NCBI GenBank assembly: GCA_002781365.1
Contig: PETN01000052.1
Location: 1-34,205 of the forward strand
Direction of reading: 5' to 3'
DNA from: Sulfurimonas sp. CG01_land_8_20_14_3_00_36_23
GTDB taxonomy: Bacteria; Campylobacterota; Campylobacteria; Campylobacterales; Sulfurimonadaceae
DNA: 34,205 nucleotides
Shown here: piece by piece, positions 1-19,490 of the stretch
Numbering within the stretch: the first letter of the stretch is position 1
Layout of the letters: each line of letters opens with the position of its first letter
Notes under the pieces: generated by a model
Told to the model about the DNA's origin: nothing
Seen by the model: the letters and a program-made list of their open reading frames with translations, nothing else
Database searches by the model: none
Made by a program: the position numbers and the translations under genes

Positions 1-225
1 CCCAGAAGCTAAGCCTCTCATCGCTGATAATACTGCATCTTTCAGGTGTGGAAATGTAGGTCGCTGCCTAGTTATATCGTTTACTTCACTTTTTACAATC
101 AATCATATTTTTATAATCATCTTATCTACTCTATATCTCTTATTTTAAGCCACTATTGCATACTTTTTTACTCTTTAAAAATAATTTATATGTTATTATT
201 TTGTATTAATTTATTAGGAATAAAT
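1..225. other. Left-edge region upstream of gmhA, no confident gene
   Basis: The first ~100 bases are less AT-rich than the rest of this gap. The minus strand has an open frame of 34 codons from a TTG at 102 to the window edge, preceded by a TGA; it could be the 5' end of a divergent gene, but plus-strand frame 2 is open over the same stretch, so chance is a fair explanation. Bases 100-225 are very AT-rich and probably hold the gmhA promoter. No gene is called. Confidence 0.3.
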
Positions 226-819
226 ATGAAAGAATATATCAAAGATCAAATTAAAAAATCTTATGAAACCAAGCAAGCTATATATGAAAATGATTTTTTA
301 TTAACTGAAATAGAACGTGTGGCAAAAAAATGTGTTGCACTTTATAAAGGTTCGAATAAAACGATTCTTGCAGGAAATGGGGGAAGTGCTGCTGATGCTC
401 AGCATATTGCTGCTGAGTTAGTCGGTCGATATGGCTTTGATAGACCCTCTATTCCATCTTTGGCACTCACTACTGATACATCCAATCTTACTGCTATTGG
501 TAACGATTACGGATATGATAAAGTTTTTTCTCGCCAACTTGAAGGTATGGGACAAAGTGGTGATATTTTTATTGGTATTTCAACATCAGGGAACTCTGTT
601 AACATTATAAATGCTTTTCACAGTGCAAAAGAAAAAGGTATTACAACGGTTGCATTAGTTGGTCGTGATGGCGGAGAAATGGCTAAAATAGCTGATATTG
701 CTCTTATCGTTCCATCTGATTCAACGCCAAGAATTCAAGAGTCTCATATCCTGATTGGTCATATACTATGTGACATAATTGAAAAAGAGATATTTGGTGA
801 TGGAGTTGGACAACACTAA
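226..819 (+). CDS. gmhA: Sedoheptulose-7-phosphate isomerase GmhA
   Basis: Cytoplasmic SIS-domain enzyme that converts D-sedoheptulose 7-phosphate to D-glycero-D-manno-heptose 7-phosphate, the first step to ADP-heptose for the LPS inner core. With the ATG at 226 the protein has 197 residues, normal for the family. The phosphate-binding loop GNGGSAADAQH is at residues 50-60 and a second SIS loop, GISTSGNS, at about 117-124. His60, Glu64, Gln171 and His179 match the zinc ligands known for GmhA. The frame stays open upstream to an ATG at 46, but those extra residues are AT-driven and unlike GmhA, while 226 has an AGGA ribosome-binding site 6 bases upstream. gmhB follows with no gap. Confidence 0.95.
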   Translation: MKEYIKDQIKKSYETKQAIYENDFLLTEIERVAKKCVALYKGSNKTILAGNGGSAADAQHIAAELVGRYGFDRPSIPSLALTTDTSNLTAIGNDYGYDKVFSRQLEGMGQSGDIFIGISTSGNSVNIINAFHSAKEKGITTVALVGRDGGEMAKIADIALIVPSDSTPRIQESHILIGHILCDIIEKEIFGDGVGQH

Positions 820-1353
820 ATGTCAGATACGTTTCAAAAAGCTCTCTTTTTAGATAGAGATGGTGTTATAAATATTGAGAAAGATTATCTCTATAAAATA
901 GAAGATTTTGAATTTATTGATGGTATCTTTGAACTTTGCCGCTATTATCAATCTCAAGGTTATCTTATTGTCGTTATAACAAATCAATCAGGTATTGTTA
1001 GAAATTTTTATACTGAAAATGATTTTAACATTTTAACAACTTGGATGGTGAATGAATTTTTAAAAAATGGTATCACTATATCAAAAGTTTATCATTGTCC
1101 TCATCATCCTGATATAACTGGTGATTGTATTTGTAGAAAGCCCAATCCTGGTATGCTTTTAGAAGCAAGACATGAGTTTAATATTGATTTGAGTAATTCA
1201 ATTCTTGTTGGAGATAAAGAGCGAGATATTGAAGCAGGTCTCAATGCAGGTCTGAAACAAACCTATCTTTTTGATACTTCAGAGAGAGTTGTTACTTCTA
1301 AAGCTTCTTGCATCGTTTCAAAATTAAAAAATATATGGAAAAAAAAATGTTGA
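820..1353 (+). CDS. gmhB: D,D-heptose 1,7-bisphosphate 7-phosphatase GmhB
   Basis: HAD-superfamily phosphatase that removes the 7-phosphate from D-glycero-beta-D-manno-heptose 1,7-bisphosphate, the step between the two HldE activities. The N-terminal DRDGVIN holds the nucleophile Asp12 and acid/base Asp14. A zinc-loop Cys93-x-His95 with Cys103-x-Cys105 just before RKPNPGM is characteristic of Gmh[11 protein letters not shown] at 131-140 is HAD motif IV. The length of 177 residues is typical. The ATG directly follows the gmhA stop, so the pair is probably translationally coupled. Confidence 0.94.
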
Positions 1354-4900: not shown

Positions 4901-5908
4901 ATGAAACATATAGAAAACACTCTAGAAGGCAAAACAATCTTAATAACAGGTGGAGCTGGATTCATTGGCTCTAGTTTAGCCTTTTATTTTCAACAGAACC
5001 ATCCAGATGCAAAAGTAGTAGTTTTAGATAGTTTTAGAAGTGGTGAAAAACTCTCAAATGGCAACCTGAAAAGTTTTGGTCACTTTAAAAATCTTTTGGG
5101 CTTTAAGGGAGAAATCATTAGTGGTGACATTAATGATAAAGATTTACTTTTACAATTAGAGACAGATTACAAATTTGATTATATATTCCATGAAGCTGCT
5201 ATCTCTGATACGACTGCACAAGAACAGGATTTGATGATAAAAACAAACGTAAATGCTTACAAAGATTTACTTGAATTAGCTATCGCACATAATGCAAACA
5301 TGATATATGCTTCTTCAGCTGCAACATACGGAAATGCTGACTCTCCACAAAAAGTTGGAAATGAATCCCCACAAAATGTTTATGGTTTTTCAAAGCTTAG
5401 TATGGATAATTTAAGTAGAGAGTATATGCAAAAAAGTGATATCACTATTGTTGGACTAAGATACTTTAATGTTTATGGACCAAGAGAGTATTTTAAAAAT
5501 ACAACTGCTTCAATGGTGTTACAATTTGGACATCAACTCTTAGCAGGTAAAAATCCTCGTCTTTTTGAAGATAGTGATAAAATTCTTCGTGATTTTATAT
5601 ATATAGAAGATATTATTCAAGCAAATATAAAAGCAATGCATCCAAAGCAGAGCGGAATCTATAATGTGGGGACAGGAAAAGCTAGAAGCTTTCAAGATAT
5701 TGTAGATATATTACAACAAGAACTTGGCACTTCGCTCAAATGTGAATATATCCCTAACCCTTTTATAGGAAGCTATCAGTTTCATACAGAAGCAGATATA
5801 AGTTCTAGTAGAGAAGGTCTTGGTTATGAGCCACTCTTTGAGATGGAAGATGCTATAAAAGCTTATGTTCCAGAGATAAAAAGATTATTTAAAGAAGAAG
5901 TCAAATAG
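4901..5908 (+). CDS. hldD: ADP-L-glycero-D-manno-heptose 6-epimerase HldD (RfaD/WaaD)
   Basis: Cytoplasmic short-chain dehydrogenase-type epimerase that makes ADP-L-glycero-D-manno-heptose, the donor used by LPS heptosyltransferases. The NADP-binding GGAGFIG is at residues 17-23, after a short N-terminal extension, and the catalytic YGFSK at 161-165 (Tyr161, Lys165). The later RDFIYIEDI and YNVGTGKARSF segments match HldD. The 335 residues are slightly longer than usual. An AGG-type ribosome-binding site precedes the ATG. The stop is directly followed by the hldE start, so they are co-translated. Confidence 0.94.
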   Translation: MKHIENTLEGKTILITGGAGFIGSSLAFYFQQNHPDAKVVVLDSFRSGEKLSNGNLKSFGHFKNLLGFKGEIISGDINDKDLLLQLETDYKFDYIFHEAAISDTTAQEQDLMIKTNVNAYKDLLELAIAHNANMIYASSAATYGNADSPQKVGNESPQNVYGFSKLSMDNLSREYMQKSDITIVGLRYFNVYGPREYFKNTTASMVLQFGHQLLAGKNPRLFEDSDKILRDFIYIEDIIQANIKAMHPKQSGIYNVGTGKARSFQDIVDILQQELGTSLKCEYIPNPFIGSYQFHTEADISSSREGLGYEPLFEMEDAIKAYVPEIKRLFKEEVK

Positions 5909-7339
5909 ATGAAAATATTAAAAAATTCTATTCCAAATATACTTGTTGTTGGTGATTTAATGATTGATCACTATCTTTGGGGAAGTTGTGATCGAATCTC
6001 ACCTGAAGCACCTGTTGCTGTTGTGGATATTTCAAAAGAGACTACCGTTTTAGGTGGTGCTGGAAATGTTATCAATAATCTAGTGGCACTTGGTGCAAAA
6101 GTAAGTGTAAGTAGTGTTGTAGGAGATGATGATAATGGTATTGAACTTACAAATATGCTCCATACAATTGGTGTGGATTGCAAAAACATAATAACGCAGC
6201 CTAAAAGAAAAACATCGAAAAAAAGCCGTGTAATAGCGGTAAGCCAGCAGGTTCTAAGATATGACAATGAGAGTAAAGAGAATATTTTATCATCCTCTGT
6301 TGAAGGGATTTTAAGCTCCTTATCTCCAAGTATCACTGACTTTGATATGGTCATTTTGTCTGATTATGGGAAGGGTGTTTTAACGGATGATTTATGTCAA
6401 GGAATCATTCAGTTGTCTCGTGAGAAGGGCGTAAAAGTTTTAGTTGATCCAAAGGGAAATGACTTTACAAAATACAGAGGAGCTTATCTTTTAACACCCA
6501 ATAAAAAAGAGGCAATGCTCGCTACCAATATTACTATAAAAGATGATAAAAGCTTAACAGAGGCACTTCTTAAACTAAAAAATGATTGTGACTTAGGTAT
6601 ATCCTTAATAACTCTATCCGAAGATGGAATTGCTACGTATGAAGATGAGCTAAAAAGATTTCCAACGGTTGCAAAAGAGGTATTTGATGTGACAGGTGCT
6701 GGAGATACTGTCATCGCTTCGATAGCATTTGCTTTAAGTTCTGGCATAGATATTGAAGAGAGTGCTAAGTTTGCAAACTTGGCCGCTGGAGTAGTCGTAG
6801 GAAAAATCGGTTCCGCAACAGTTACTTTAAGCGAGATAGAAGAGTATGAAGCTACGTTACATCAAAGTACATCCGATGCACATATAAAAAGCTTTGAAGA
6901 GATAGAATCAATCGTGAGAAGATATGTTAGCAATGGAAAAAAAATAGTTTTTACAAACGGTTGCTTTGATATACTGCATGTTGGTCATGTGAAATATTTG
7001 CAAAAAGCAAAAAGCTTTGGAGATATACTCATTGTCGGACTTAACTCTGATGAGTCTGTTTCTCGTCTTAAAGGTCCGACGCGTCCTATAAATATTGCAC
7101 AAGACAGAGCTTACCTTCTAGCAGCGCTTGAAGCTGTAGATTTTGTTGTTCCATTCTCTGAGGATACCCCTTATGAACTTATAAAAATGATAAGACCAGA
7201 CATTCTTGTAAAAGGTGGTGACTATGAAGGAAAAGAGGTCGTTGGAACTGAATTTGCTGGGAAATTAAAGCTTGTTGATTTTGTCAATGGCAAAAGTACA
7301 ACAAAAACTATAGAGAAGATACAAGGACAAGAATGTTAA
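5909..7339 (+). CDS. hldE: Bifunctional heptose 7-phosphate kinase / heptose 1-phosphate adenylyltransferase HldE
   Basis: Two-domain cytoplasmic enzyme for the second and fourth steps to ADP-heptose. Residues about 1-320 are a PfkB/ribokinase domain, with LGGAGNVINNL near 49 and the active-site signature DVTGAGD at 260-266 (catalytic base Asp266). Residues about 340-476 are a nucleotidyltransferase domain with FTNGCFDILHVGH (HxGH motif) starting at 348 and a KGGDY segment. The 476 residues are the usual length of fused HldE. With gmhA, gmhB and hldD the whole pathway is encoded in the window. The 3' end overlaps the next gene by 7 bases. Confidence 0.96.
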   Translation: MKILKNSIPNILVVGDLMIDHYLWGSCDRISPEAPVAVVDISKETTVLGGAGNVINNLVALGAKVSVSSVVGDDDNGIELTNMLHTIGVDCKNIITQPKRKTSKKSRVIAVSQQVLRYDNESKENILSSSVEGILSSLSPSITDFDMVILSDYGKGVLTDDLCQGIIQLSREKGVKVLVDPKGNDFTKYRGAYLLTPNKKEAMLATNITIKDDKSLTEALLKLKNDCDLGISLITLSEDGIATYEDELKRFPTVAKEVFDVTGAGDTVIASIAFALSSGIDIEESAKFANLAAGVVVGKIGSATVTLSEIEEYEATLHQSTSDAHIKSFEEIESIVRRYVSNGKKIVFTNGCFDILHVGHVKYLQKAKSFGDILIVGLNSDESVSRLKGPTRPINIAQDRAYLLAALEAVDFVVPFSEDTPYELIKMIRPDILVKGGDYEGKEVVGTEFAGKLKLVDFVNGKSTTKTIEKIQGQEC

Positions 7340-7939: not shown

Positions 7940-8938
7940 TTATGCTTTAGCAACAGGGGTATCGGTATTTAGTACCAGATTTACAGCCTTAATAACTTCT
8001 AAGGCTGTAATACTCTTCATACAGTCGTGATGTCCCAGAGGACACTCTCTTTTCATACATGGTGAACAAACCATCTCATGTCTTACTATTTTACTTTTCT
8101 CATTTTTCCATTGGGAAGTCTCTTTATATTTGGTCGGTCCAAAAATAGCAACAGTTGGTACTTGATACGCAGCTGCCACATGCATCGGTCCACTATCATT
8201 TGTAATCATTAAAGAGCAACCTCCAATATTGGCACAGAGCTCTTGGATGTCAGTCTTTCCAGCAAGGTTTGTATAGTTTTGCACATGCCAAGATTTTAGA
8301 TGAGACTCTATCTCGTTTGCCATCTCTACTTCATTTGGTCCGCCAAAAATGAGGATATCAAATCTATCCGAGAACTCTTTTGCGACCTCTGCAAAACGCT
8401 CTGGATACCATCTTTTTGCACTTCCATACGTAGCACCCGCATTGATTCCTAAGGTCGGTTTGTGAAAAGATTTTGGTTCGATGTAAAGTTTTAAAGCTCC
8501 AACCTCTCCATCAAAATTATCCGTATTACTCATTGCTAATTTTGCATATTGAATGCATAGATGCTGCTTTGAAGATATTTTAGGCGTATGGGAAAGTAAA
8601 AAAAGAGAGTGCCATGACCTTTTTGCAATACAAATCACAGTGTCAGTAAAACGAAGTAAAAGAGACGCGTGGAGCTGACTTCTAAAGCTTATAGCGAGAT
8701 GAAACTCCCCTAACTCTTTCGCTAGTTTATAGGTCGCAATGTATCTATTTGAAGCTTTTTTTGTCTCATCGACTATGGCTTTCTCACATTGTGGATGATA
8801 CTTTAATGCTTCTATACTTGCATGACTTCCGACAAAAGTAAGTTTGGCATGTGGAAATTCTTTACATAAAAGTTCAATTGCAGGAGTAGCCATAATAGCG
8901 TCTCCTAACCAATTTGGTAAAATAATTAATATCTTCAC
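7940..8938 (-). CDS. waaF: LPS heptosyltransferase II WaaF
   Basis: GT9 (GT-B fold) enzyme that adds the second L,D-heptose to the LPS inner core at the cytoplasmic face of the membrane. The N-terminus MKILIILPNWLGDAIMATPAI is the WaaF signature, and NDSGPMHVAAAYQVPTVAIFGPT is the C-terminal donor-binding region. The 332 residues are normal. A CSPCMKRECPLGHHDCM segment near the end carries the Cys cluster common in this family. The start overlaps the stop of the upstream PAP2 gene by 4 bases (ATGA). It carries one exact and one near copy of the GGCATGTGGAA repeat. Confidence 0.92.
   Translation of the reverse strand: MKILIILPNWLGDAIMATPAIELLCKEFPHAKLTFVGSHASIEALKYHPQCEKAIVDETKKASNRYIATYKLAKELGEFHLAISFRSQLHASLLLRFTDTVICIAKRSWHSLFLLSHTPKISSKQHLCIQYAKLAMSNTDNFDGEVGALKLYIEPKSFHKPTLGINAGATYGSAKRWYPERFAEVAKEFSDRFDILIFGGPNEVEMANEIESHLKSWHVQNYTNLAGKTDIQELCANIGGCSLMITNDSGPMHVAAAYQVPTVAIFGPTKYKETSQWKNEKSKIVRHEMVCSPCMKRECPLGHHDCMKSITALEVIKAVNLVLNTDTPVAKA
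8846..8856 (+). repeat. GGCATGTGGAA repeat, copy 3
   Basis: Exact 11-mer within waaF, antisense to the gene, read Phe-Pro-His-Ala-Lys. A one-mismatch copy lies at 8279-8289 in the same gene. Confidence 0.9.
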
Positions 8939-9594
8939 TGCTTTTTCTCAATTAAAAGAGAGTATAAGATTTTACTGCTAATAAATACAATAAAAAAAGA
9001 GCTAACGACATCACTTAAAAAATGCCCACCAGCTGAAACTCTTGCAATACTGACTAATACTCCATACGTTGCTGCTAAAGCTATCCACAGACTTTTTCTT
9101 TTGTTTGCCAAGAGAGCTATCCCAATTATAGAAAAAGCTGCGGCTGCATGACCTGAACTAAATGAGTATCCATCTTGATTACTTACAATAAATGCTGGCG
9201 AGAACTCTTTTTTTCCTCCAAAGTATGTAGTCTGATTTGGTCTAGCTCTCTCCCAATTCTCTTTTAAAATTGAGTTTACAATTAATCCAGGAGCTAGGCT
9301 AAAAACTAAGATGATATATAAAAATACTTTTGCATTTAAGTTTAGAATAGATTTTTTCTTAAATAAGTTATATAAAAATATTGTTAGTGCTGAGAATGCA
9401 AAGAAGATAATAACAGGCTTTACAGAAAAGTAAAAAAAACTCTCAAATAGGCTTCCTTTGGCTGGAAAATCTTCTCCATCGTAAAATAGAGTACTAATAT
9501 AAAGATCTATCTGTGGAAAAAAGATAAAAATCGCTGAACTGAGAAGAAATAACCCCCATATATATATGGGTACATTGAAATATTTTTTATTCAT
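8935..9594 (-). CDS. PAP2-family membrane phosphatase
   Basis: Inner-membrane protein of 219 residues with about six hydrophobic segments and the three-part PAP2 signature: KENWERARP, FSSGHAAAA and ARVSAGGHFLSD. The active site should face the periplasm and remove phosphate from a lipid phosphate such as undecaprenyl pyrophosphate or lipid A. In an LPS gene block, a lipid A 1- or 4'-phosphatase (LpxE/LpxF-like) or a C55-PP phosphatase are the likely roles; sequence alone does not decide. The ATG at 9594 is preferred over the in-frame TTG at 9600. It overlaps waaF by 4 bases and follows the glycosidase-like gene by 8 bases. Confidence 0.86.
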   Translation of the reverse strand: MNKKYFNVPIYIWGLFLLSSAIFIFFPQIDLYISTLFYDGEDFPAKGSLFESFFYFSVKPVIIFFAFSALTIFLYNLFKKKSILNLNAKVFLYIILVFSLAPGLIVNSILKENWERARPNQTTYFGGKKEFSPAFIVSNQDGYSFSSGHAAAAFSIIGIALLANKRKSLWIALAATYGVLVSIARVSAGGHFLSDVVSSFFIVFISSKILYSLLIEKKQ

Positions 9595-9602
9595 GGACAA
9601 AA

Positions 9603-10862
9603 TTATACCGCGTCTTTTATTTTTATATATAAAGGAGAAGAGCCGATGTGAAGTGTTGGCTCATTGACTCTCTTGCCTTGCGTGTCAAAAACCTCAAAAA
9701 AATCTTCATTTTTAAGTGTTGTCGGTTTAAGTGACCAGTGAATTTGTAAGAGTTGCTCTTCAGCGAGACATTGAAGAATATAGTAATCTCTTTTTATATC
9801 AAGTCGTAAGAATTGCGCATGCATAAGATTTTGCATCATAAATCTATAAGCTTCAAAGGCAGAGCGTTTTCTCATACCCTCTCTGTTGTCAATAAGCCCA
9901 TATCCAGGAGCGATGAGCTGATGCCACGACACAGAATCAACCTGCTGAGAAGCAAAGGCTAAAAAGTGGTATCGAAGCATATAATCTCTGTAAAGCTCCT
10001 CACTTACACACTCATGTTCACTCGTTGGCGCGTAGGGCGCTGTGCCAGTAATGGGCCAGTTCGTCTCAGTTATATGGAGCTCTTGAGGTGTTTTTGGACT
10101 TGTCCAAACCATGGTACTAAGAAGTGCTATCTTATCAGAGAGATTAAATCCCATCTGCGTATTTTCTGGAGCGCCACGTCTATCTACATAGAGGAGGGCA
10201 GAGAGGGCGTCATACTTATATTTGAAAAAGTTAAAAAGTGTATGGGCTGTGAAATGGTACTCAAAGTCGATAGCACCACTCCCTATAAGTTTGGCATGTG
10301 GAAACTCTGCTACTTTTAAATCATACGCTACTTGAAAAAATCTGTTGTACTCATCGACGCTGAAAAATCCCCATTTGGCTCGGTTAATAGTTGTCCCTAT
10401 CTCAAACATTTCCACATGCCCATCAAGCACTGAAAATAGAGTGCGTAAATCTTTTTTGAGGAGTTCTAAATCTTCTATATGCTCTCTGTCTTGAATGATT
10501 TTAAGTGTTATCTTTTTATTTCCACATGCCACTATGAATTTTTTAAGCGCATCCACTCTCCCTATCTCCCAAAGTTTAAAACGGAGTAAAACTCTTTGTA
10601 CGCCTAGCGCATCTAAAAGTTCTAGAGTCTGCTCAGGTTCTCTTTCGTAATCCACACCCATAGAAAAAAAAGTGCTTGAATCTATCACTTTTCTTTTAAT
10701 AAAAGGCACCATGAGAATAGAAAAAGGGAGTATAAAAAGAGCGGTGAAAACTGTTTTTATGAGTGAGAAAAGTTCTCGCTTTCGCATCTGTTTTTTGTAT
10801 GTTTTGTCTTTGAGTTGGTAAGGCTGGTCGGAATAATTATCCCAAAAAAATGGTTCTTTCAT
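9603..10862 (-). CDS. Membrane-anchored glycosidase-like (TIM-barrel) protein
   Basis: A 419-residue protein with a basic cytoplasmic N-terminus, one transmembrane helix at about 32-54 and a large domain that should be periplasmic. Its fold looks like a (beta/alpha)8 glycoside hydrolase: repeated strand-helix units, FEIGTTINRAKWG around residue 153, HITETNWP around 263-270 with Glu266 placed like a clan GH-A nucleophile, and VSWHQL near 311. The usual Asn-Glu acid/base pair is not obvious; Glu154 is the nearest candidate. No exact family is recognised. It begins a probable minus-strand operon with the PAP2 gene and waaF, suggesting trimming of a surface glycan. It holds three exact copies of GGCATGTGGAA. 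Confidence 0.7.
   Translation of the reverse strand: MKEPFFWDNYSDQPYQLKDKTYKKQMRKRELFSLIKTVFTALFILPFSILMVPFIKRKVIDSSTFFSMGVDYEREPEQTLELLDALGVQRVLLRFKLWEIGRVDALKKFIVACGNKKITLKIIQDREHIEDLELLKKDLRTLFSVLDGHVEMFEIGTTINRAKWGFFSVDEYNRFFQVAYDLKVAEFPHAKLIGSGAIDFEYHFTAHTLFNFFKYKYDALSALLYVDRRGAPENTQMGFNLSDKIALLSTMVWTSPKTPQELHITETNWPITGTAPYAPTSEHECVSEELYRDYMLRYHFLAFASQQVDSVSWHQLIAPGYGLIDNREGMRKRSAFEAYRFMMQNLMHAQFLRLDIKRDYYILQCLAEEQLLQIHWSLKPTTLKNEDFFEVFDTQGKRVNEPTLHIGSSPLYIKIKDAV
10293..10303 (+). repeat. GGCATGTGGAA repeat, copy 4
   Basis: Exact 11-mer in the glycosidase-like gene, antisense, read Phe-Pro-His-Ala-Lys. Confidence 0.9.
10410..10420 (-). repeat. GGCATGTGGAA repeat, copy 5
   Basis: Exact 11-mer on the coding strand of the glycosidase-like gene, read Gly-His-Val-Glu. 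Confidence 0.9.
10520..10530 (-). repeat. GGCATGTGGAA repeat, copy 6
   Basis: Exact 11-mer on the coding strand of the glycosidase-like gene, read Val-Ala-Cys-Gly-Asn. Confidence 0.9.
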
Positions 10863-10924: not shown

Positions 10925-12250
10925 ATGAAAATATCAGTTATTGGTACAGGTTATGTCGGGCTTGTAAGTGGAGTCTGTTTCGCACAAATGGGAAACAAAG
11001 TGACATGTATAGATATAGATGAGAAAAAAATCAAAAATCTAGAGAAGGGAATTATCCCTATTTATGAGCCTGGCTTAGAGGACATGACTTTAGAAAACTA
11101 TAAAAAAGGGAGTCTCTCTTTCAGTACAAACTCGAGTGAGGCAATTGCAAACTCAAGCATCGCTTTTATCGCTGTTGGAACACCTATGGGACAAGACGGA
11201 AGTGCTGATCTGCAGTACGTACTTGCAGTTGCTAAGACTATTGGTCAAAGTATGAAAGAGTATATGGTGATTGTCGATAAATCAACCGTTCCTGTTGGAA
11301 CTGCAGATAAAGTAAAAGCTACTATCCAAGCTGAGCTTGATGCTCGTGGAGTTGCGATAGCTTTTGATGTTGTTTCCAATCCTGAGTTTTTAAAAGAGGG
11401 TGCTGCGATACAAGACTTCTTACATCCTGACCGTGTGGTTATTGGTGCTGAGAGTGAAAAAGCGATAAACGTAATGCGTGAACTTTATGCACCATTTATG
11501 AAACACCACGACCGATTTATTGCCATGGATATAAAATCTGCAGAGATGACGAAATATGCGGCAAATGCGATGCTTGCGACAAAAATATCTTTTATGAATG
11601 AGATGAGTCAGATTTGTGAGCGAGTGGGTGCAGATATTAACAAGGTTCGTAACGGGATAGGGAGCGATAACCGTATAGGTTACAGTTTTATCTACCCAGG
11701 GTGCGGATATGGCGGGAGTTGTTTTCCAAAAGATGTACAAGCACTTGCAAAAACAGCAAAAGATTTCGGCTATAACCCTAAGATTTTAGACGCTGTTGAA
11801 GCTGTGAATTATGAGCAAAAATATGTGATATCCAATAAAGTAATCAGTAGATTTGGTGAAAATCTTCAAGGCAAAACTTTCGCAGTTTGGGGTCTTAGCT
11901 TTAAACCTGAAACAGATGATATGCGCGAGGCGAGTTCTATTACTATTATCAATGAGCTTACTTCTCGTGGTGCGAAGGTAGTGGCGTATGACCCAAAGGC
12001 GAGACATGAAGCTGAGTCACACTACTTAAGGGGAAATGAAAAAGTCTCCTATGTCGATAGCAAATATGAAGCACTTAAAGATGCAGATGCACTTATTCTT
12101 ATCACAGAGTGGCAAGAGTTTAGAAGCCCTGATTTTGATGAGATGAAAAAACTTCTTAAAAATGCTATTTTCTTTGATGGTAGAAATCAGTTTAGTAAAG
12201 AGAAAGTGAACGCTTATGGTTTTGAATATTTTCAAATCGGAGTGAAATAA
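10925..12250 (+). CDS. ugd: UDP-glucose 6-dehydrogenase
   Basis: NAD-dependent cytoplasmic enzyme that oxidises UDP-glucose to UDP-glucuronate for surface polysaccharide. The N-terminal Rossmann motif is MKISVIGTGYVGLVSG; the central part has SNPEFLKEGAA and the substrate-binding and catalytic GYGGSCFPKD with Cys266; the C-terminal domain has the AVWGLSFKPETDDMREA segment. The 441 residues are typical. AGGA lies 9 bases before the ATG. It is divergent from the glycosidase-like gene across a 62-base promoter region and followed within 2 bases by the DNA ligase gene. Confidence 0.94.
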   Translation: MKISVIGTGYVGLVSGVCFAQMGNKVTCIDIDEKKIKNLEKGIIPIYEPGLEDMTLENYKKGSLSFSTNSSEAIANSSIAFIAVGTPMGQDGSADLQYVLAVAKTIGQSMKEYMVIVDKSTVPVGTADKVKATIQAELDARGVAIAFDVVSNPEFLKEGAAIQDFLHPDRVVIGAESEKAINVMRELYAPFMKHHDRFIAMDIKSAEMTKYAANAMLATKISFMNEMSQICERVGADINKVRNGIGSDNRIGYSFIYPGCGYGGSCFPKDVQALAKTAKDFGYNPKILDAVEAVNYEQKYVISNKVISRFGENLQGKTFAVWGLSFKPETDDMREASSITIINELTSRGAKVVAYDPKARHEAESHYLRGNEKVSYVDSKYEALKDADALILITEWQEFRSPDFDEMKKLLKNAIFFDGRNQFSKEKVNAYGFEYFQIGVK

Positions 12251-12252
12251 GT

Positions 12253-13062
12253 GTGCTGAAGCTTTTTGTCCTAAGTTGGTTTTTGTTTACACATCTAAAC
12301 GCACTCACTTTACAAAAAGCAAAACTCTATAACGACCAAAATATAAGCGGCTGGGTTATGTCTGAAAAACTAGATGGCATACGCGCTTTTTGGGATGGCA
12401 AAAACCTTCTTACCAGAAAAGGTAAAGTAATAAACGCTCCAAAATATTTTACAAAAGAGCTTCCACCCTTTGAATTAGATGGTGAGCTTTGGACAAGACG
12501 AGGGGAGTTTGAAAAGATTCAATCCATTGTTTTAGAGGAAGTTCCACATGCCAAATGGAGTGAGATAAAGTATATGATTTTTGAAGTTCCACATGCCGAG
12601 GGAAACTTTACTTCAAGATTGGCAAGAGTGCAAAAATATAGAGATACGAAACAACTACAGCATGTGGAAATTATTGAGCAAAAGAGATGCAATAACCAAA
12701 CAGAGTTAGACTCTTTTTTAGAGAGTGTTCTTGCTCTGGGCGGTGAAGGCGTGATGATTAAAGATGCTTCAAGAGACTATTTTGAGGGAAGAAGCGACTC
12801 TATTTTAAAAGTAAAAAAAGCGCAAGATATGGAAGCTAAAGTTATTGGCTATAAAAATGGAACTGGGAAATTCTCAGGTTTGATGGGAAGCTTGCAGGTA
12901 GAGTTGCAAAATGGGACGCAGTTTTTTATCGGTAGCGGCTTTAGCGATGCGCAGAGAAAAAATCCGCCTCAAATCGGTGAGATAATCACTTTTAAATACT
13001 ACGGTTTTACAAAATTTAAGAAGCCAAAATTTGCTTCTTTTATGAGAGTGAGAAAAGATTAA
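12253..13062 (+). CDS. Predicted periplasmic ATP-dependent DNA ligase (Lig E type)
   Basis: Minimal ATP-dependent DNA ligase of 269 residues. An N-terminal hydrophobic stretch ending in LNA (cleavage about 18) looks like a Sec signal peptide, so the mature enzyme should be periplasmic. Ligase motifs in order: SEKLDGIRA with the AMP-accepting Lys39 (motif I), FELDGELW (III), GGEGVMIKD (IV) and LKVKKAQDMEAKV (V), then an OB-fold domain ending in a basic tail. No extra DNA-binding domains are present, as in the Lig E group, which has been discussed as acting on imported DNA in competent bacteria. The GTG start has GGAG 10 bases upstream. It sits between ugd and a GT9 gene, an odd place for a DNA enzyme, and has two exact plus one near copy of GGCATGTGGAA. 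Confidence 0.88.
   Translation: MLKLFVLSWFLFTHLNALTLQKAKLYNDQNISGWVMSEKLDGIRAFWDGKNLLTRKGKVINAPKYFTKELPPFELDGELWTRRGEFEKIQSIVLEEVPHAKWSEIKYMIFEVPHAEGNFTSRLARVQKYRDTKQLQHVEIIEQKRCNNQTELDSFLESVLALGGEGVMIKDASRDYFEGRSDSILKVKKAQDMEAKVIGYKNGTGKFSGLMGSLQVELQNGTQFFIGSGFSDAQRKNPPQIGEIITFKYYGFTKFKKPKFASFMRVRKD
12542..12552 (-). repeat. GGCATGTGGAA repeat, copy 7
   Basis: Exact 11-mer in the DNA ligase gene, antisense, read Val-Pro-His-Ala-Lys. It is 45 bases from copy 8. Confidence 0.9.
12587..12597 (-). repeat. GGCATGTGGAA repeat, copy 8
   Basis: Exact 11-mer in the DNA ligase gene, antisense, read Val-Pro-His-Ala-Glu. A one-mismatch copy in the other orientation is at 12659-12669. Confidence 0.9.
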
Positions 13063-14045
13063 TGAATATTTTAGTTGTGCGTACAGATAAGCTTGGTGAT
13101 TTTATTACCTCACTGCCAGCGATGTATGCCTTGAAACAGCATAGCCCAAAGAATAGAATTATCGCTTGTGTGGCACCACTTAACAAAGAGTTGGCATTGG
13201 CATGCACGTCCTCTTTGGTTGAGGGTGGATTTATCGATGAGGTTATTGTTGATGATGGTCTTGGCTTGTGGAGTCTTGTAAAAAAACTTCGGCATGTCCA
13301 AGCAGATGTCTCGATAACTCTTTTTTCAAACACTCGTGTGGCATTGGCTCAGTTTTTAGCAGGCATTCCAAAACGGATTGCACCTGCTACAAAAATCGCT
13401 CAAATATTTTATACCGATAGAGTCAAACAGAGACGAAGTGAAGTAAAAATGGCTGAGTTTGAGTATAACTTGGAACTTACAAAAGCTTTGTTTCCTTCTA
13501 TAAACCTAGAGTATAAAAAGCCACTTTTAGCCTTTAGTGATTCTAAAAATATCTATGAACTCTTTTGTACAAATTACAATATAGACAAAGAGATAATAGC
13601 CTTCCATGTAGGCTTTGGAGGTTCTAGCGATGCAAACTGGAATCTTGATGAGTATGAGATTTTAATAAGAGCAGTTTTAAAACAAGAAAAATATCAAGTC
13701 GTTCTTACTTTTGGACCTGATGAGGTAAAGTTGTGTGAAGAGATGCAGGGTAGATTGCAAAAAGAAGCAGTGCTCTTTTACATTTCAACTGAGGGTATTG
13801 TAAACTTTGCAAAACTCATAAGCAATTTCAAACTTTTTGTAAGTACTTCAACGGGAACTTTTCATTTGGCATCTTTGGTAGGAACTCCAACAATGACCTT
13901 TTTTGCAGCGAGTCTATTCGCGAGTTCTAAGAGATGGAAAGGCGTTGGGGATGAAAAGTTACAACAGAACTTTATGATTCCACATGCCAAAGATGAGAGA
14001 GTAAAATTGTTTGAGAGTGTGAAGAAGAGGCTGAGTGCAGTTTAG
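13062..14045 (+). CDS. GT9 (heptosyltransferase-family) glycosyltransferase
   Basis: A 327-residue GT-B-fold transferase. The N-terminus MNILVVRTDKLGDFITSLPA is the GT9 acceptor-side signature, and VSTSTGTFHLASLVGTPT the C-terminal donor site. It is probably an LPS core transferase using ADP-heptose or a similar donor; it diverges from WaaF, so it could be WaaC-like or a third core transferase. Its ATG overlaps the ligase stop by one base (TAATG). The 3' end overlaps the convergent kinase gene by 4 bases. It has one exact copy of GGCATGTGGAA near the end. Confidence 0.85.
   Translation: MNILVVRTDKLGDFITSLPAMYALKQHSPKNRIIACVAPLNKELALACTSSLVEGGFIDEVIVDDGLGLWSLVKKLRHVQADVSITLFSNTRVALAQFLAGIPKRIAPATKIAQIFYTDRVKQRRSEVKMAEFEYNLELTKALFPSINLEYKKPLLAFSDSKNIYELFCTNYNIDKEIIAFHVGFGGSSDANWNLDEYEILIRAVLKQEKYQVVLTFGPDEVKLCEEMQGRLQKEAVLFYISTEGIVNFAKLISNFKLFVSTSTGTFHLASLVGTPTMTFFAASLFASSKRWKGVGDEKLQQNFMIPHAKDERVKLFESVKKRLSAV
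13978..13988 (-). repeat. GGCATGTGGAA repeat, copy 9
   Basis: Exact 11-mer near the 3' end of the GT9 gene, antisense, read Ile-Pro-His-Ala-Lys. Confidence 0.9.
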
Positions 14046-14785
14046 CTTTTCCCTTTTAGTTTTCTCTTGAACAAAACCTTATCTTTGAGTTTTTTATCAT
14101 GCATTAAAATCTCTGCGATTGCTTTAGCTTCATCAAGGGAAGCGAGCTTTGCATAGGTTTTTGCAATGGTAGTTAAATCCTCTTCATTAAACCAAAGTTT
14201 GTTGAAGTTCTCTAAACCCTCATAATTTACAATAGAGCGAAACTTCATTCTGTTGATGTCAACTAAAGAGAAATGGTAGCCATCATCCTCTTTTTTGATT
14301 AAGATATTCCCCCCTGAATAATCCACATGCCAAACACCTTTTTGATGAATCTCATAAGTAAACTTTGCAAAATCCTCCAAAACCTTCTCTTTATACTCTG
14401 GCTGATCATCTCTGATGTGGGCAATCGTAAACTCATATTTAAATTCACGAGATATAAAATAACTTTTCTTTAAAAGTCCAAATCTAAAGAACTCTATATA
14501 ACCGATAGCTTCTGGAGTAGCGACATTGAGGGCATGGAGTTTTGTGGCATTGTGAAAGGCTTTGTAGGCTTTTGATTTTCGTAAATAGGCATAGACAAAC
14601 TGGTTTAAGAGGTTCGGAACTCTAAAAGCTTTTACGACTGTGTTTATCCCTTCAAGCTCTATCACTTTTAACTCATTTCTTGCGAGATGAATTGTCTCTG
14701 AATTGTCTAGAAAAATGGACTCTATATTTTTAAGGAGAGGGATGAAATTTGGATACTTTTGATTTATTTCAAGTTTATAAGACAT
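14042..14785 (-). CDS. WaaP/InaA-type lipopolysaccharide kinase
   Basis: A 247-residue protein-kinase-like fold. Lys52 in TVVKAF is the ATP-binding lysine candidate, WHVDYSGGNILI (His153, Asp155, Asn160) is the catalytic loop, and LVDINRMKF (Asp176) replaces the DFG metal-binding motif. This pattern matches the LPS heptose/Kdo kinase family (WaaP, KdkA, InaA), which adds phosphate to inner-core sugars in the cytoplasm. Neighbouring GT9 and GT2 genes fit that. It ends convergently with the GT9 gene, the two stop codons sharing TTAG. A near copy of the repeat is at 14321-14331, right at the catalytic His-Val-Asp. Confidence 0.82.
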   Translation of the reverse strand: MSYKLEINQKYPNFIPLLKNIESIFLDNSETIHLARNELKVIELEGINTVVKAFRVPNLLNQFVYAYLRKSKAYKAFHNATKLHALNVATPEAIGYIEFFRFGLLKKSYFISREFKYEFTIAHIRDDQPEYKEKVLEDFAKFTYEIHQKGVWHVDYSGGNILIKKEDDGYHFSLVDINRMKFRSIVNYEGLENFNKLWFNEEDLTTIAKTYAKLASLDEAKAIAEILMHDKKLKDKVLFKRKLKGKS

Positions 14786-14837
14786 GTTTACTTTAGCTAC
14801 TTTGTGGTAAGATTAAATAAAAAATTATTGAGTGTCA

Positions 14838-15590
14838 ATGCAAAAAAATATTACGGCCACAATTATAACATTAAATGAAAAGAAGCACATTAGAGATGTC
14901 ATTTTAAATGTACAGAAAATTTGTAACGAGGTTATCATTGTTGACTCTTTAAGCAGTGATGAGACTTGTCAAATTTCAGAAGAGTTAGGCGCTAAAGTGA
15001 TAGTGCAAAAATATCTTGGAGATGGTGGGCAGAAAGCTTTTTGTGAGCAGTTTGCTACAAATGAGTGGATACTGAGCATAGATGCGGATGAGAGACTTGA
15101 AGATGCGGCGATAGAGTACTTAAGAGATTTTGATTTTGAAAATGCAGAGTATGACGCGTACTCTTTTCGCCGTAAAAGTTTTATCGGCAAAAAATTTATA
15201 AGACAATGGTACCCAGATAGAGTTGTACGACTCTATAGAAAATCGGCATGTTGCTATAACACGAAGGGCGAGCATGGTGCCGTTATTTGTGATAATTTTA
15301 AAGACTTAGATATAGATATGCTTCATTACTCCTTTGATGATTTTGGAGTTTTGGTGAGTAAAGCGGATAGATTTGCGGTTAATTTAGCAAAAGTTCGTTT
15401 TGCTGAGGGCAAACGTGCTGCATGGCATGACCCTTTTACTCACGGAATAGGAGCTTTCTTTAAAGGACTTATTCTCAAGGGTGGAATTTTTGGTGGCTTG
15501 CATGAGTGGCATGTGGCTTTTGCATCGGCTTACAATAGCTACATGAAGTACGTAGTAATGCTTGAGATGGCTGAGAATGAAAAAAAGTAG
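14838..15590 (+). CDS. GT2 LPS-core glycosyltransferase (WaaE/KdtX-like)
   Basis: A GT-A-fold transferase of about 250 residues. The N-terminus ATIITLNEKKHIRDVI, VDSLSSDET and WILSIDADE (metal-binding DxD-type Asp-Ala-Asp) match the WaaE-type family that adds glucose or another hexose to the LPS inner core. YPDRVVRLYRKSA and GEHGAV are also typical. The ATG at 14838 has GAG five bases upstream; GTG 14832 is the alternative. It is divergent from the kinase gene and overlaps the next transferase by 14 bases. A weaker match to the repeat, GGCATGTGGCT, is at 15508-15518. Confidence 0.86.
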   Translation: MQKNITATIITLNEKKHIRDVILNVQKICNEVIIVDSLSSDETCQISEELGAKVIVQKYLGDGGQKAFCEQFATNEWILSIDADERLEDAAIEYLRDFDFENAEYDAYSFRRKSFIGKKFIRQWYPDRVVRLYRKSACCYNTKGEHGAVICDNFKDLDIDMLHYSFDDFGVLVSKADRFAVNLAKVRFAEGKRAAWHDPFTHGIGAFFKGLILKGGIFGGLHEWHVAFASAYNSYMKYVVMLEMAENEKK

Positions 15591-16674
15591 TGTTTTAGAG
15601 CTTTGTCTCTCTCCTGATTTGGGTGGACTTGAACTCTATATGGTGAGGGCTTCGCACTATTTAGATGCAAAAACAGATTGCATCAGCGTTATAAATGAGA
15701 GTGGAAAGTTAGAACAGTATTACGAAAACACAAACTATAAATATGAGAAGATAAAGAGAAACGCAACTCTGTTATCTTTTTTATCCGCTCAAAAACTAGC
15801 AAAAATAATTGATGAGAATAGAGTTGAAGTTGTTCACCTTCACTGGACCAAAGATATTCCAGTGGCGGTCTTAGCAAAACTTTTAAGTAAACAAAAACCA
15901 AAATTAGTTCAAACCAGAAATATGACAATGACTAGGTTTAAAGATGATTTTTATCATAGGTTTTTATATAAAAATATAGATACGATACTTCCTGTGACCT
16001 ACCAAGTAAAAGAGCAGTTAGAGCGATTTATCCCCGAAGATATAAGACCAAAAATCGAAGTTTTATATATGGGTGCAGATACTCCCGAGTTGATAGATGG
16101 AGATAAATATAGAGCCCTTAAAGAGCAGTATAGTTTAAAAGACTCTTTTATTGTTGGAATTGTTGGGCGTATTGAAGAGGGTAAAGGACAATATTTAGTC
16201 ATAGATGCTATAAAAAAACTCTCGCAAAAAAATCTAGATGTAAAAGCGTTGATTGTTGGGCATGCTATGGATGAAAAATATCTTGAGAGCCTCAAAAAAG
16301 AGTTAGTGAAAAATAGTCTTGAAGAGAGAGTGATATTTACAGGATTTACTCGTGAAGCACAGAAGCTAATGCAAATATGTGACACTTTGGTTTTAGCAAC
16401 AGATAGAGAGACATTTGGCTTAGTTCTTATAGAAGCAATGGCATGTGGAATCTGTGTCATAGGAACAAATAACGCAGGACCTTTAGAAATCATTGATGAC
16501 AATAAAACGGGACTCTTGTTTGAGAAAAACAGTAGTGAGAGCTTGGCAGAGAAGATAGAACTGCTTCTCAATGATAAAGAGTTGAAAAGTAGATTGGCAG
16601 AGGCTGGGAGAGAGAAAGCGGAGTGTGTTTTTGAGAGTGAGAAGCAGTTTGAGAAATTAGAAAGGAAGTTATAG
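15577..16674 (+). CDS. GT4-type glycosyltransferase
   Basis: GT-B-fold transferase of about 365 residues. The N-terminal SPDLGGLELYMVRASHYL is the acceptor-side glycine loop, HLHWTKDIPVAVLA follows, and the C-terminal domain has GIVGRIEEGKGQ and the donor site ETFGLVLIEAMACGICVIGT with the E-x7-E motif. The sugar and acceptor are not predictable; a role in the LPS core or O-chain is inferred from neighbours. ATG 15577 is preferred over ATG 15562 because MKKSSVLELCLSP starts like the family and has GAG upstream. It overlaps the preceding GT2 gene. Confidence 0.87.
   Translation: MKKSSVLELCLSPDLGGLELYMVRASHYLDAKTDCISVINESGKLEQYYENTNYKYEKIKRNATLLSFLSAQKLAKIIDENRVEVVHLHWTKDIPVAVLAKLLSKQKPKLVQTRNMTMTRFKDDFYHRFLYKNIDTILPVTYQVKEQLERFIPEDIRPKIEVLYMGADTPELIDGDKYRALKEQYSLKDSFIVGIVGRIEEGKGQYLVIDAIKKLSQKNLDVKALIVGHAMDEKYLESLKKELVKNSLEERVIFTGFTREAQKLMQICDTLVLATDRETFGLVLIEAMACGICVIGTNNAGPLEIIDDNKTGLLFEKNSSESLAEKIELLLNDKELKSRLAEAGREKAECVFESEKQFEKLERKL
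16440..16450 (+). repeat. GGCATGTGGAA repeat, copy 10
   Basis: Exact 11-mer in the GT4 gene, read Met-Ala-Cys-Gly-Ile within the donor-binding motif. Confidence 0.9.
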
Positions 16675-18239: not shown

Positions 18240-19490
18240 TTAAAGGTTATTAGCCGAAATAAATATTCCAACCATCAGTGCGAACAGTGCCAGTGGAAAT
18301 TGTGCAGAAAACATATTTTCTACTAAACTTGCAACAGAAAAAACAGTTAAAAAGATATATTTTAGATTTGATAACTCTTTGTTTTGTATAGTTAACTTTG
18401 CTATTTGATAAATAATATTTAGATATAAAAACAACCCAACCAAACCTAACTGAACTAGATAGGTCATATAATTATTATGATAATGGGCTATATTTATGAT
18501 ACTCATCATTTCAGGCATATCAGTTTTTATCTTTTCTCTCAAAGCATCCATTTCACTCCCAATTCCCGTTCCTAAAATAGGGTTTTCTATAAATAGCTCA
18601 ACTCCGACTATCCAAGCTCCAAGTCTTTGCCCAAGAGAGCCATTATATTTGTTAGTAGAGTTGTTAGAGAGAGTAGTGGTTTCATGTGTTGACTGATCAG
18701 ATGTTAAGATAGTAGTAGTTTCATGTGTTGATTGATCAAATCTTACTTTAAAGACAGGACTCACATGATAAGCGGTATAAAATATTGTGCTGACTAAGGC
18801 TAACATTGAGAAGAAGGCTATAAATTTATTTTTGATATTTAAAAAACCTACGACAAAAATAGAAACTGCAAATGCCAAATGACCAGTTCTTCCACCATTT
18901 AAAAATAGGTTTGATGTAACTGTTAAGAAATATAAGAAGTAAAATATTTTCCACTTTAACTCTTTTTCAAAGAAAAATCTATTTAATAGAAGGAGTGAGG
19001 CGAAAGTTAAAAACATTGCATATTGCAGATGGTTCATAAATGGGGAAGGGTCCATTGCATCTCCATGCCTTAATTGCCATAATTCGAAAAAAATGCCATA
19101 GGAGAGAATTTCACTTATAAGCATACCCAATAAAAATGCTGAAATAATTTTTGTGAGCTGTTCTAACTTTATCTGTGTAGCAAAGATAAATATAGGCAAG
19201 AGATACCAGTATGTTATTAAAAATATCCAACCACTATAAATATTTTTACTCCACAAAAGAGATACAGTACTAAAGCCAAAAAATAGAGCTATTGAAAACA
19301 CAACTCTGTTTTTGATGAGAGCTTGTATTCTGTTTTTTAGATTTTTATCTAAAAGCCATAGTAAAAACAGTGTTGCTGTTAATATAGATATTCCAGCTCT
19401 TGATATTGGTAATAAAAAAGCATAAACTATTACCAAATAATTTGAGTATTTTTGATAGTCTACACTATTTTGAATTTTGCTTAGAGCCAA
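18240..19490 (-). CDS. O-antigen ligase/polymerase family membrane protein (WaaL/Wzy-like)
   Basis: A 416-residue inner-membrane protein with about ten hydrophobic helices and one large hydrophilic loop (about residues 250-310) before LGQRLGAWIVGVELFIENPILGTGIGSEMD, the signature of the O-antigen ligase/polymerase family. The periplasmic loop holds the catalytic region; HYHNNYMTYLVQLG follows. It may join O-chain to the lipid A core or polymerise repeat units. The loop contains a tandem 13-residue duplication (DQSTHETTT twice). The TTG start overlaps the upstream epimerase stop by 10 bases and has only a weak ribosome-binding site, so the start is uncertain. Confidence 0.82.
   Translation of the reverse strand: MALSKIQNSVDYQKYSNYLVIVYAFLLPISRAGISILTATLFLLWLLDKNLKNRIQALIKNRVVFSIALFFGFSTVSLLWSKNIYSGWIFLITYWYLLPIFIFATQIKLEQLTKIISAFLLGMLISEILSYGIFFELWQLRHGDAMDPSPFMNHLQYAMFLTFASLLLLNRFFFEKELKWKIFYFLYFLTVTSNLFLNGGRTGHLAFAVSIFVVGFLNIKNKFIAFFSMLALVSTIFYTAYHVSPVFKVRFDQSTHETTTILTSDQSTHETTTLSNNSTNKYNGSLGQRLGAWIVGVELFIENPILGTGIGSEMDALREKIKTDMPEMMSIINIAHYHNNYMTYLVQLGLVGLFLYLNIIYQIAKLTIQNKELSNLKYIFLTVFSVASLVENMFSAQFPLALFALMVGIFISANNL
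18672..18737. repeat. Two tandem 39-base units in the O-antigen ligase gene
   Basis: A 27-base core at 18672-18698 recurs at 18711-18737 with two mismatches; the offset of 39 bases equals 13 codons. It encodes DQSTHETTT twice in the large periplasmic loop. Confidence 0.8.

Follow-up and report, generated by a model that had tools for sequence, protein, structure and literature searches.

Analysis of a 34,205-nucleotide stretch of DNA from a Sulfurimonas genome, hereafter the window, revealed that a gene for a predicted exported Lig E DNA ligase lies among surface-glycan genes, and that direct adjacency to glycan genes recurs at Lig E loci in Campylobacterota. The role of exported Lig E has been open since its discovery, and published surveys reported neither conserved synteny nor neighbors hinting at partners (PMC8455567, PMC12221376); in the synteny survey of PMC8455567, Campylobacterota were represented by Campylobacter. 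The link to glycan operons in Campylobacterota is contrary to this published view. It spans lineages and names partner genes, which makes the role of Lig E testable in culturable Campylobacterota. We favor, with modest confidence, a reading in which an exported, nick-sealing Lig E is co-expressed with the envelope-glycan program and acts on DNA located at the cell surface or outside it. It would have no dedicated role in connection with GGCATGTGGAA, a dispersed repeat found in its gene. This corrects a tempting story, as a repeat-laden ligase need not serve an uptake repeat.

Judged from its sequence, the ligase appears to be an ordinary-looking, canonical Lig E. The gene and its main features are as follows.

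12253..13062, + strand: ligE, predicted exported Lig E ATP-dependent DNA ligase (269 aa, GTG start, NF006592)
12253..12303, + strand: signal-peptide-like N-terminus MLKLFVLSWFLFTHLNA, with probable cleavage after A17, followed by LTLQ
12367..12369, + strand: codon for Lys39, the nucleotidyl acceptor in motif I SEKLDGIR, from alignment with solved Lig E enzymes
12859..12873, + strand: G-T-G-K-F, corresponding to the Lig E lysine-fork motif GKGK-aromatic, with the first Lys replaced by Thr
12922..12948, + strand: F-F-I-G-S-G-F-S-D, corresponding to the Lig E motif F-basic-IGSGF-x-D, with the basic residue replaced by Phe

The NCBIfam model NF006592 (PRK09125 'DNA ligase') matches the product at full length, over residues 16-269, with 358.7 bits against a curated cut-off of 200. 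A Pfam scan detected DNA_ligase_A_M and DNA_ligase_OB_2 and nothing else. The nucleotidyl-transferase motifs are SEK39LDGIR(A), ELDGELW, EGVMIKD and LKVKK. The catalytic lysine and motifs III-V are present and extra domains are absent, which corresponds to a minimal adenylation and OB core. The nearest solved structures (8u6x, 6gdr and 4d05, E values 2.6e-62 to 9.6e-56) are the Lig E enzymes of Neisseria gonorrhoeae, Alteromonas and Psychromonas (Ngo-Lig, Ame-Lig and Psy-Lig). LigE shares with them the two-domain scaffold, all motifs, a predicted leader peptide and a full-length match, and none has a latch or a DNA-binding domain. Differences are found in the two OB motifs defined in PMC6144786, which are highly conserved, yet not strictly defining. 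LigE has GTGKF instead of GKGKF, and F-F-IGSGFSD instead of F-basic-IGSGF. In alignment with Lig E, the framework of both motifs is retained, and one lysine and the basic residue are substituted; a non-basic residue in the F-x-IGSGF motif is common among the relatives of LigE. Two conserved Lig E DNA-contact positions are changed, which counts against the reading we favor.

The N-terminus of LigE resembles a Sec signal peptide. Its hydrophobic peak is 2.16, and a peak above 1.9 is present in 87 of 98 homologues compared to 36 of 120 random ORFs. A hydrophobic N-terminus ending in Ala is conserved among the relatives, and a leader peptide is near-universal in Lig E (PMC8455567). Export is therefore probable. 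The preliminary description, made from the window alone, had identified the gene as a predicted Lig E-type ligase with Lys39 and with a signal-like N-terminus. The family match and motifs bear out the identification, and the conserved N-terminus supports probable export.

The surroundings of ligE in the window are heptose and LPS-core genes, listed below.

46..819, + strand: SIS-domain protein, GmhA-like by context
820..1353, + strand: HAD phosphatase, GmhB-like by context
4901..5908, + strand: hldD, ADP-glyceromanno-heptose 6-epimerase (TIGR02197, 345.7 bits, over cut-off)
5909..7339, + strand: hldE, heptose kinase/adenylyltransferase (TIGR02198 and TIGR02199, over cut-off)
7940..8938, - strand: heptosyltransferase II-like protein, GT9 (TIGR02195, 183.8 bits, over cut-off)
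8935..9600, - strand: PAP2 phosphatase, LpxF-like
9603..10862, - strand: conserved 419-aa protein, with three exact repeat copies
10925..12250, + strand: ugd, nucleotide-sugar (UDP-glucose) dehydrogenase, 2 nt upstream of ligE, an adjacency conserved in relatives
13062..14045, + strand: GT9-family (heptosyltransferase-like) glycosyltransferase, in a TAATG overlap with the ligE stop
14042..14785, - strand: Kdo/WaaP-like LPS kinase
14832..15590, + strand: GT2-family glycosyltransferase
15562..16674, + strand: GT4-type glycosyltransferase (Pfam Glycos_transf_1)
18240..19490, - strand: O-antigen ligase family protein (Wzy_C)

The gaps between ugd, ligE and the GT9 gene are +2 and -1 nt. This spacing and overlap are operon-like; co-transcription and a shared function of the three genes are putative. 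The 419-aa protein has no Pfam or NCBIfam match; in relatives, it is again encoded next to ligE or within the LPS locus.

Similar neighborhoods are observed across the phylum. At 116 Campylobacterota ligE loci, the nearest ORF on each side was called, clustered and annotated via representatives. Genes for LPS, nucleotide-sugar or glycosylation functions account for 129 of the 206 direct neighbors. The classes counted were epimerases/dehydratases, nucleotide-sugar dehydrogenases, glycosyltransferases, GalU, Pgi, PglB, ManC, GmhB-like proteins, RmlC, DegT, Wzx and LpxB. When the same BLAST cut-off is applied, glycan clusters take in only 7 of the 621 ORFs drawn from random regions in the genus and none of the 261 from a sample of the source genome, so direct glycan adjacency exceeds the base rate. 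Consistent with this, the 25 commonest Pfam families among 120 random ORFs included two GT9 proteins as the sole glycosyltransferases. At ligE loci outside Campylobacterota, 0 of 38 neighbors fall in the glycan classes; DAHP synthase, DapB, exonuclease and Fic are among the main clusters there. The position of ligE between ugd and a GT9 gene had been described as lacking a glycan explanation, which the neighbor counts contradict.

At least one glycan neighbor is present at 84 of the 116 loci and two at 45; the other 32 have none. Neighbors on the same strand lie within 20 nt in 152 of 206 cases. The glycan partners differ by lineage (ugd/GT9, rmlB/ugd, galU/pgi, pglB, hldD/gmhB and manC), mostly with operon-like spacing, and the ligE-GT9 pair is found in 18 loci with the repeat present or absent. 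Two families, f1 (50 of 54 loci with a glycan neighbor) and f20 (12 of 13), make up most of the count, which weighs against the reading we favor; f11 has only 5 of 12, and the remaining families have 2/4, 2/4, 2/2, 1/1, 1/3 and, three times, 0/1. Long retention within lineages contributes to the recurrence. The LigE tree shows 17 changes of glycan context. These changes and the differing partner genes indicate that one frozen arrangement is not the explanation.

The repeat itself is a feature of the whole genome. The window contains 15 exact copies of GGCATGTGGAA, against 0.01 expected, and the source genome (G000) contains 734; the reversed control has zero matches in the whole source genome. 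In the sampled part of this genome, exact copies make up 111 of the 149 found when one mismatch is allowed. The 111 sampled copies give the extended consensus TTGGCATGTGGAAAT. Single-base variants among the sampled copies are almost confined to the two ends, leaving a near-invariant core. The near absence of core variants and the flank consensus suggest that GGCATGTGGAA is a true uptake-type sequence, and it looks like an uptake-sequence-like repeat of a Sulfurimonas-group genome. Like the Neisseria DUS and the Pasteurellaceae USS, it is short, non-palindromic and dispersed in hundreds of copies with an invariant core. Its copies lie on both strands and some form close inverted pairs (e.g. G000 C1:48611+/48623-), as in those systems. 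Unlike them, it has a different sequence and a host in a Campylobacterota genus, and its uptake specificity is putative. The literature searched yielded no uptake sequence for Campylobacterota. Among 249 genomes of the order, the source genome alone is rich in GGCATGTGGAA. Within the genus (135 genomes), eight genomes have 318-946 copies, ten have 15-152 (G268, G293, G295, G296, G306, G334, G354, G359, G367 and G368) and the rest have at most 7. In the ten low-copy genomes, exact copies are a minority when one mismatch is allowed (e.g. 50/160 in G268, 104/420 in G368 and 83/352 in G306). The repeat looks eroded there, or these genomes use a different dialect; they are a possible natural series of repeat gain and loss.

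Three copies are located within ligE, two exact and one near, in agreement with the preliminary description.

12542..12552, - strand: exact GGCATGTGGAA copy, in the codons for VPHA, residues 97-100
12587..12597, - strand: exact GGCATGTGGAA copy, in the codons for VPHA, residues 112-115
12659..12669, + strand: one-mismatch copy AGCATGTGGAA, in the codons around HVE, residues 137-139

The gene had also been called the richest in the repeat. This is narrowly true within the window, where its density is 2.47 per kb compared to 2.38 per kb for the ORF at 9603-10862, and fails in a 345 kb sample of the source genome, where ligE comes 7th among 292 genes. Given the mean gene rate, the probability of at least two copies in 810 bp is 0.022, and 16 of the sampled genes have at least two copies against 12.2 expected. 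The density in ligE is thus not special. In other repeat-rich genomes, ligE holds one or two copies, and these occupy the three codon sites seen here (VPHA 97, VPHA 112 and HVE 137), with a single exception near residue 100 in G291; the third site is an exact copy in some relatives. The sharing of sites indicates that the copies are inherited and were not enriched independently. With an unremarkable density and homologous codon sites, repeat enrichment was rejected as a clue to ligE function. In the alignment, the peptide VPHA at the first site is restricted to repeat-bearing relatives. The repeat therefore seems to have reshaped LigE at this site instead of serving it.

Lig E might nevertheless repair nicked periplasmic double-stranded DNA during natural transformation, and would then belong functionally to a repeat-based uptake system. 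A competence role has been proposed for Lig E (PMC10799422), and the preliminary description had suggested that ligase and repeat could be parts of one system. We consider this unlikely, with an appreciable chance of being right. Lig E is present in 72 of the 135 congeneric genomes, in 66 of them above the family cut-off. It is found in 16 of 18 repeat-bearing and 56 of 117 repeat-free genomes (p = 0.0016), and the two repeat-bearing genomes without it are 71-75% complete. For genomes at least 90% complete the numbers are 11 of 11 and 38 of 68 (Fisher p = 0.005). The expected co-occurrence thus holds in one direction only, since Lig E is common in congeners without the repeat and is present in many families that lack it. 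The correlation is also confounded, because the repeat-bearing genomes are close relatives. The rpoB tree groups them together, and Lig E is retained in sister groups that lack the repeat. This tree, in which G301 is only a fragment and forms a spurious long branch, does not cleanly support a single repeat clade. In the basal members of the repeat-bearing set (G295, G296 and G354), Lig E belongs to another lineage and its gene has galU/pgi surroundings. The near-universal presence of comEC in the genus (78 of 79 good genomes) fits competence, and for the same reason comEC presence was rejected as a discriminator.

Lig E appears to be independent of the repeat and of an intact comEC in some genomes. 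In G306, an island some 8 kb long splits comEC. In G368, which is 99% complete, comEC was not found by Pfam or protein search. Their sister G305, with an intact comEC, has 946 repeat copies, and the repeats in G306 and G368 are eroded. Both retain a full-length ligE in the order ugd-ligE-GT9, with a dN/dS of 0.17 between them. This retention is suggestive of independence from the repeat, short of proving it, and, together with the repeat-free congeners and the ordinary, inherited copies in ligE, runs counter to the same-system claim. Incoming DNA becomes single-stranded at ComEC, which leaves a narrow window for nick repair. A different observation points to uptake and counts against the reading we favor. 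The gene for the periplasmic uptake protein ComEA, identified by HHH_3, TIGR00426 and TIGR01259 (NCBIfam), directly adjoins ligE in 4 of 116 loci (L016, L059, L068 and L226), three times on the same strand; we estimate about 0.2 cases in 116 loci for one or two such genes per genome. The order in L068 is comEA-ligE-ugd-type dehydrogenase. A general competence role thus stays alive without reference to the repeat, and such a role is possible, not repeat-specific.

Glycan loci are hot spots of exchange, so the neighborhood of ligE could also arise without shared function, as an accessory gene that landed repeatedly at sites of insertion. The patchy presence of Lig E in the genus, the 17 context changes and the 32 loci with no glycan neighbor are consistent with such a history. 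On the other hand, ugd-ligE-GT9 is long conserved within its lineage at 65-77% ligase identity, rmlB-ligE-ugd is kept through most of family f20, and the conserved arrangements have overlaps of 1-4 nt. Rather than variable O-antigen cargo, many of the partners are genes of the LPS core or of precursor synthesis (hldD, galU, pgi and ugd). We regard the chance of a mere passenger as small. That LigE is a cytoplasmic accessory repair ligase, with an uncleaved hydrophobic N-terminus that is not a signal, is very improbable. In some lineages ligE is located beside a gene for a PolB-like 3'-5' exonuclease, a methyladenine glycosylase or an IMS polymerase, which speaks for such a role. The excess of hydrophobic N-termini among homologues (87/98 against 36/120) and the near-universal leader peptide of Lig E (PMC8455567) argue against it.

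In the reading we favor, co-expression with the envelope-glycan program, a Sec-type signal peptide would export the minimal adenylation and OB ATP-dependent ligase. LigE would be translated from the ugd-ligE-GT9 operon and, as the short gaps suggest, made together with the LPS core. Outside the cytoplasm it may seal nicks in double-stranded DNA; the probable substrate would be DNA in the periplasm, on the cell surface or within the biofilm matrix. LigE is not expected to be a dedicated component of a GGCATGTGGAA system, since the repeat is genome-wide and the ligE copies are inherited at peptide-tolerant codon sites. The gonococcal Lig E belongs to the same family, is exported and has been proposed to ligate extracellular or biofilm DNA; its knock-outs have biofilm and adhesion defects (PMC10799422, PMC12221376). 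Unlike ligE here, the gonococcal gene is, going by published work, not part of a glycan operon (PMC12221376), and the conserved glycan operon likewise sets LigE apart from the known Lig E enzymes, for which no synteny was reported (PMC8455567). How an enzyme outside the cytoplasm obtains ATP is unexplained for Lig E as a whole, which counts against the favored reading. More specifically, Campylobacterota Lig E could be a functional part of the surface-glycan program and maintain DNA that is attached to, or interwoven with, the glycan surface or the biofilm matrix. We put this forward tentatively, as a serious possibility toward which we do not yet lean. If true, it gives Lig E a conserved pathway context, against the published view.

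Several other features were observed near ligE or in related genomes. In Arcobacter-like genomes (L029, L042 and L051), ligE adjoins an oppositely oriented prepilin-like (N_methyl) gene. In Campylobacter-like genomes (L084, L086, L251, L252, L255 and L257), a gene for a PolB-like 3'-5' exonuclease overlaps or abuts ligE. For Cj1669c, the literature describes only a slight down-regulation under oxidants. The island in comEC of G306 (L297, C15:14000-25000) contains genes for a TnsA-like endonuclease, a KwaB-like protein (Kiwa defence), a radical SAM protein and a UDG-family protein.

Other uptake-like dialects were sought by k-mer scans of about 14-40 kb each from some 22 repeat-free genomes with Lig E. 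Comparable non-palindromic motifs were absent from the scanned stretches except for one cluster in G348. The palindrome TTACATGTA(A/G) is strongly over-represented in numerous genomes of the family (L111, L113, L121, L123, L160, L172 and others); it is common to genomes with and without Lig E, and was rejected as a Lig E-linked dialect. The cluster in G348 (L165) consists of TTGCGTTTG and TGCGTTTGC, which occur 18 and 15 times in the 24 kb around ligE, compared to 1-2 expected.
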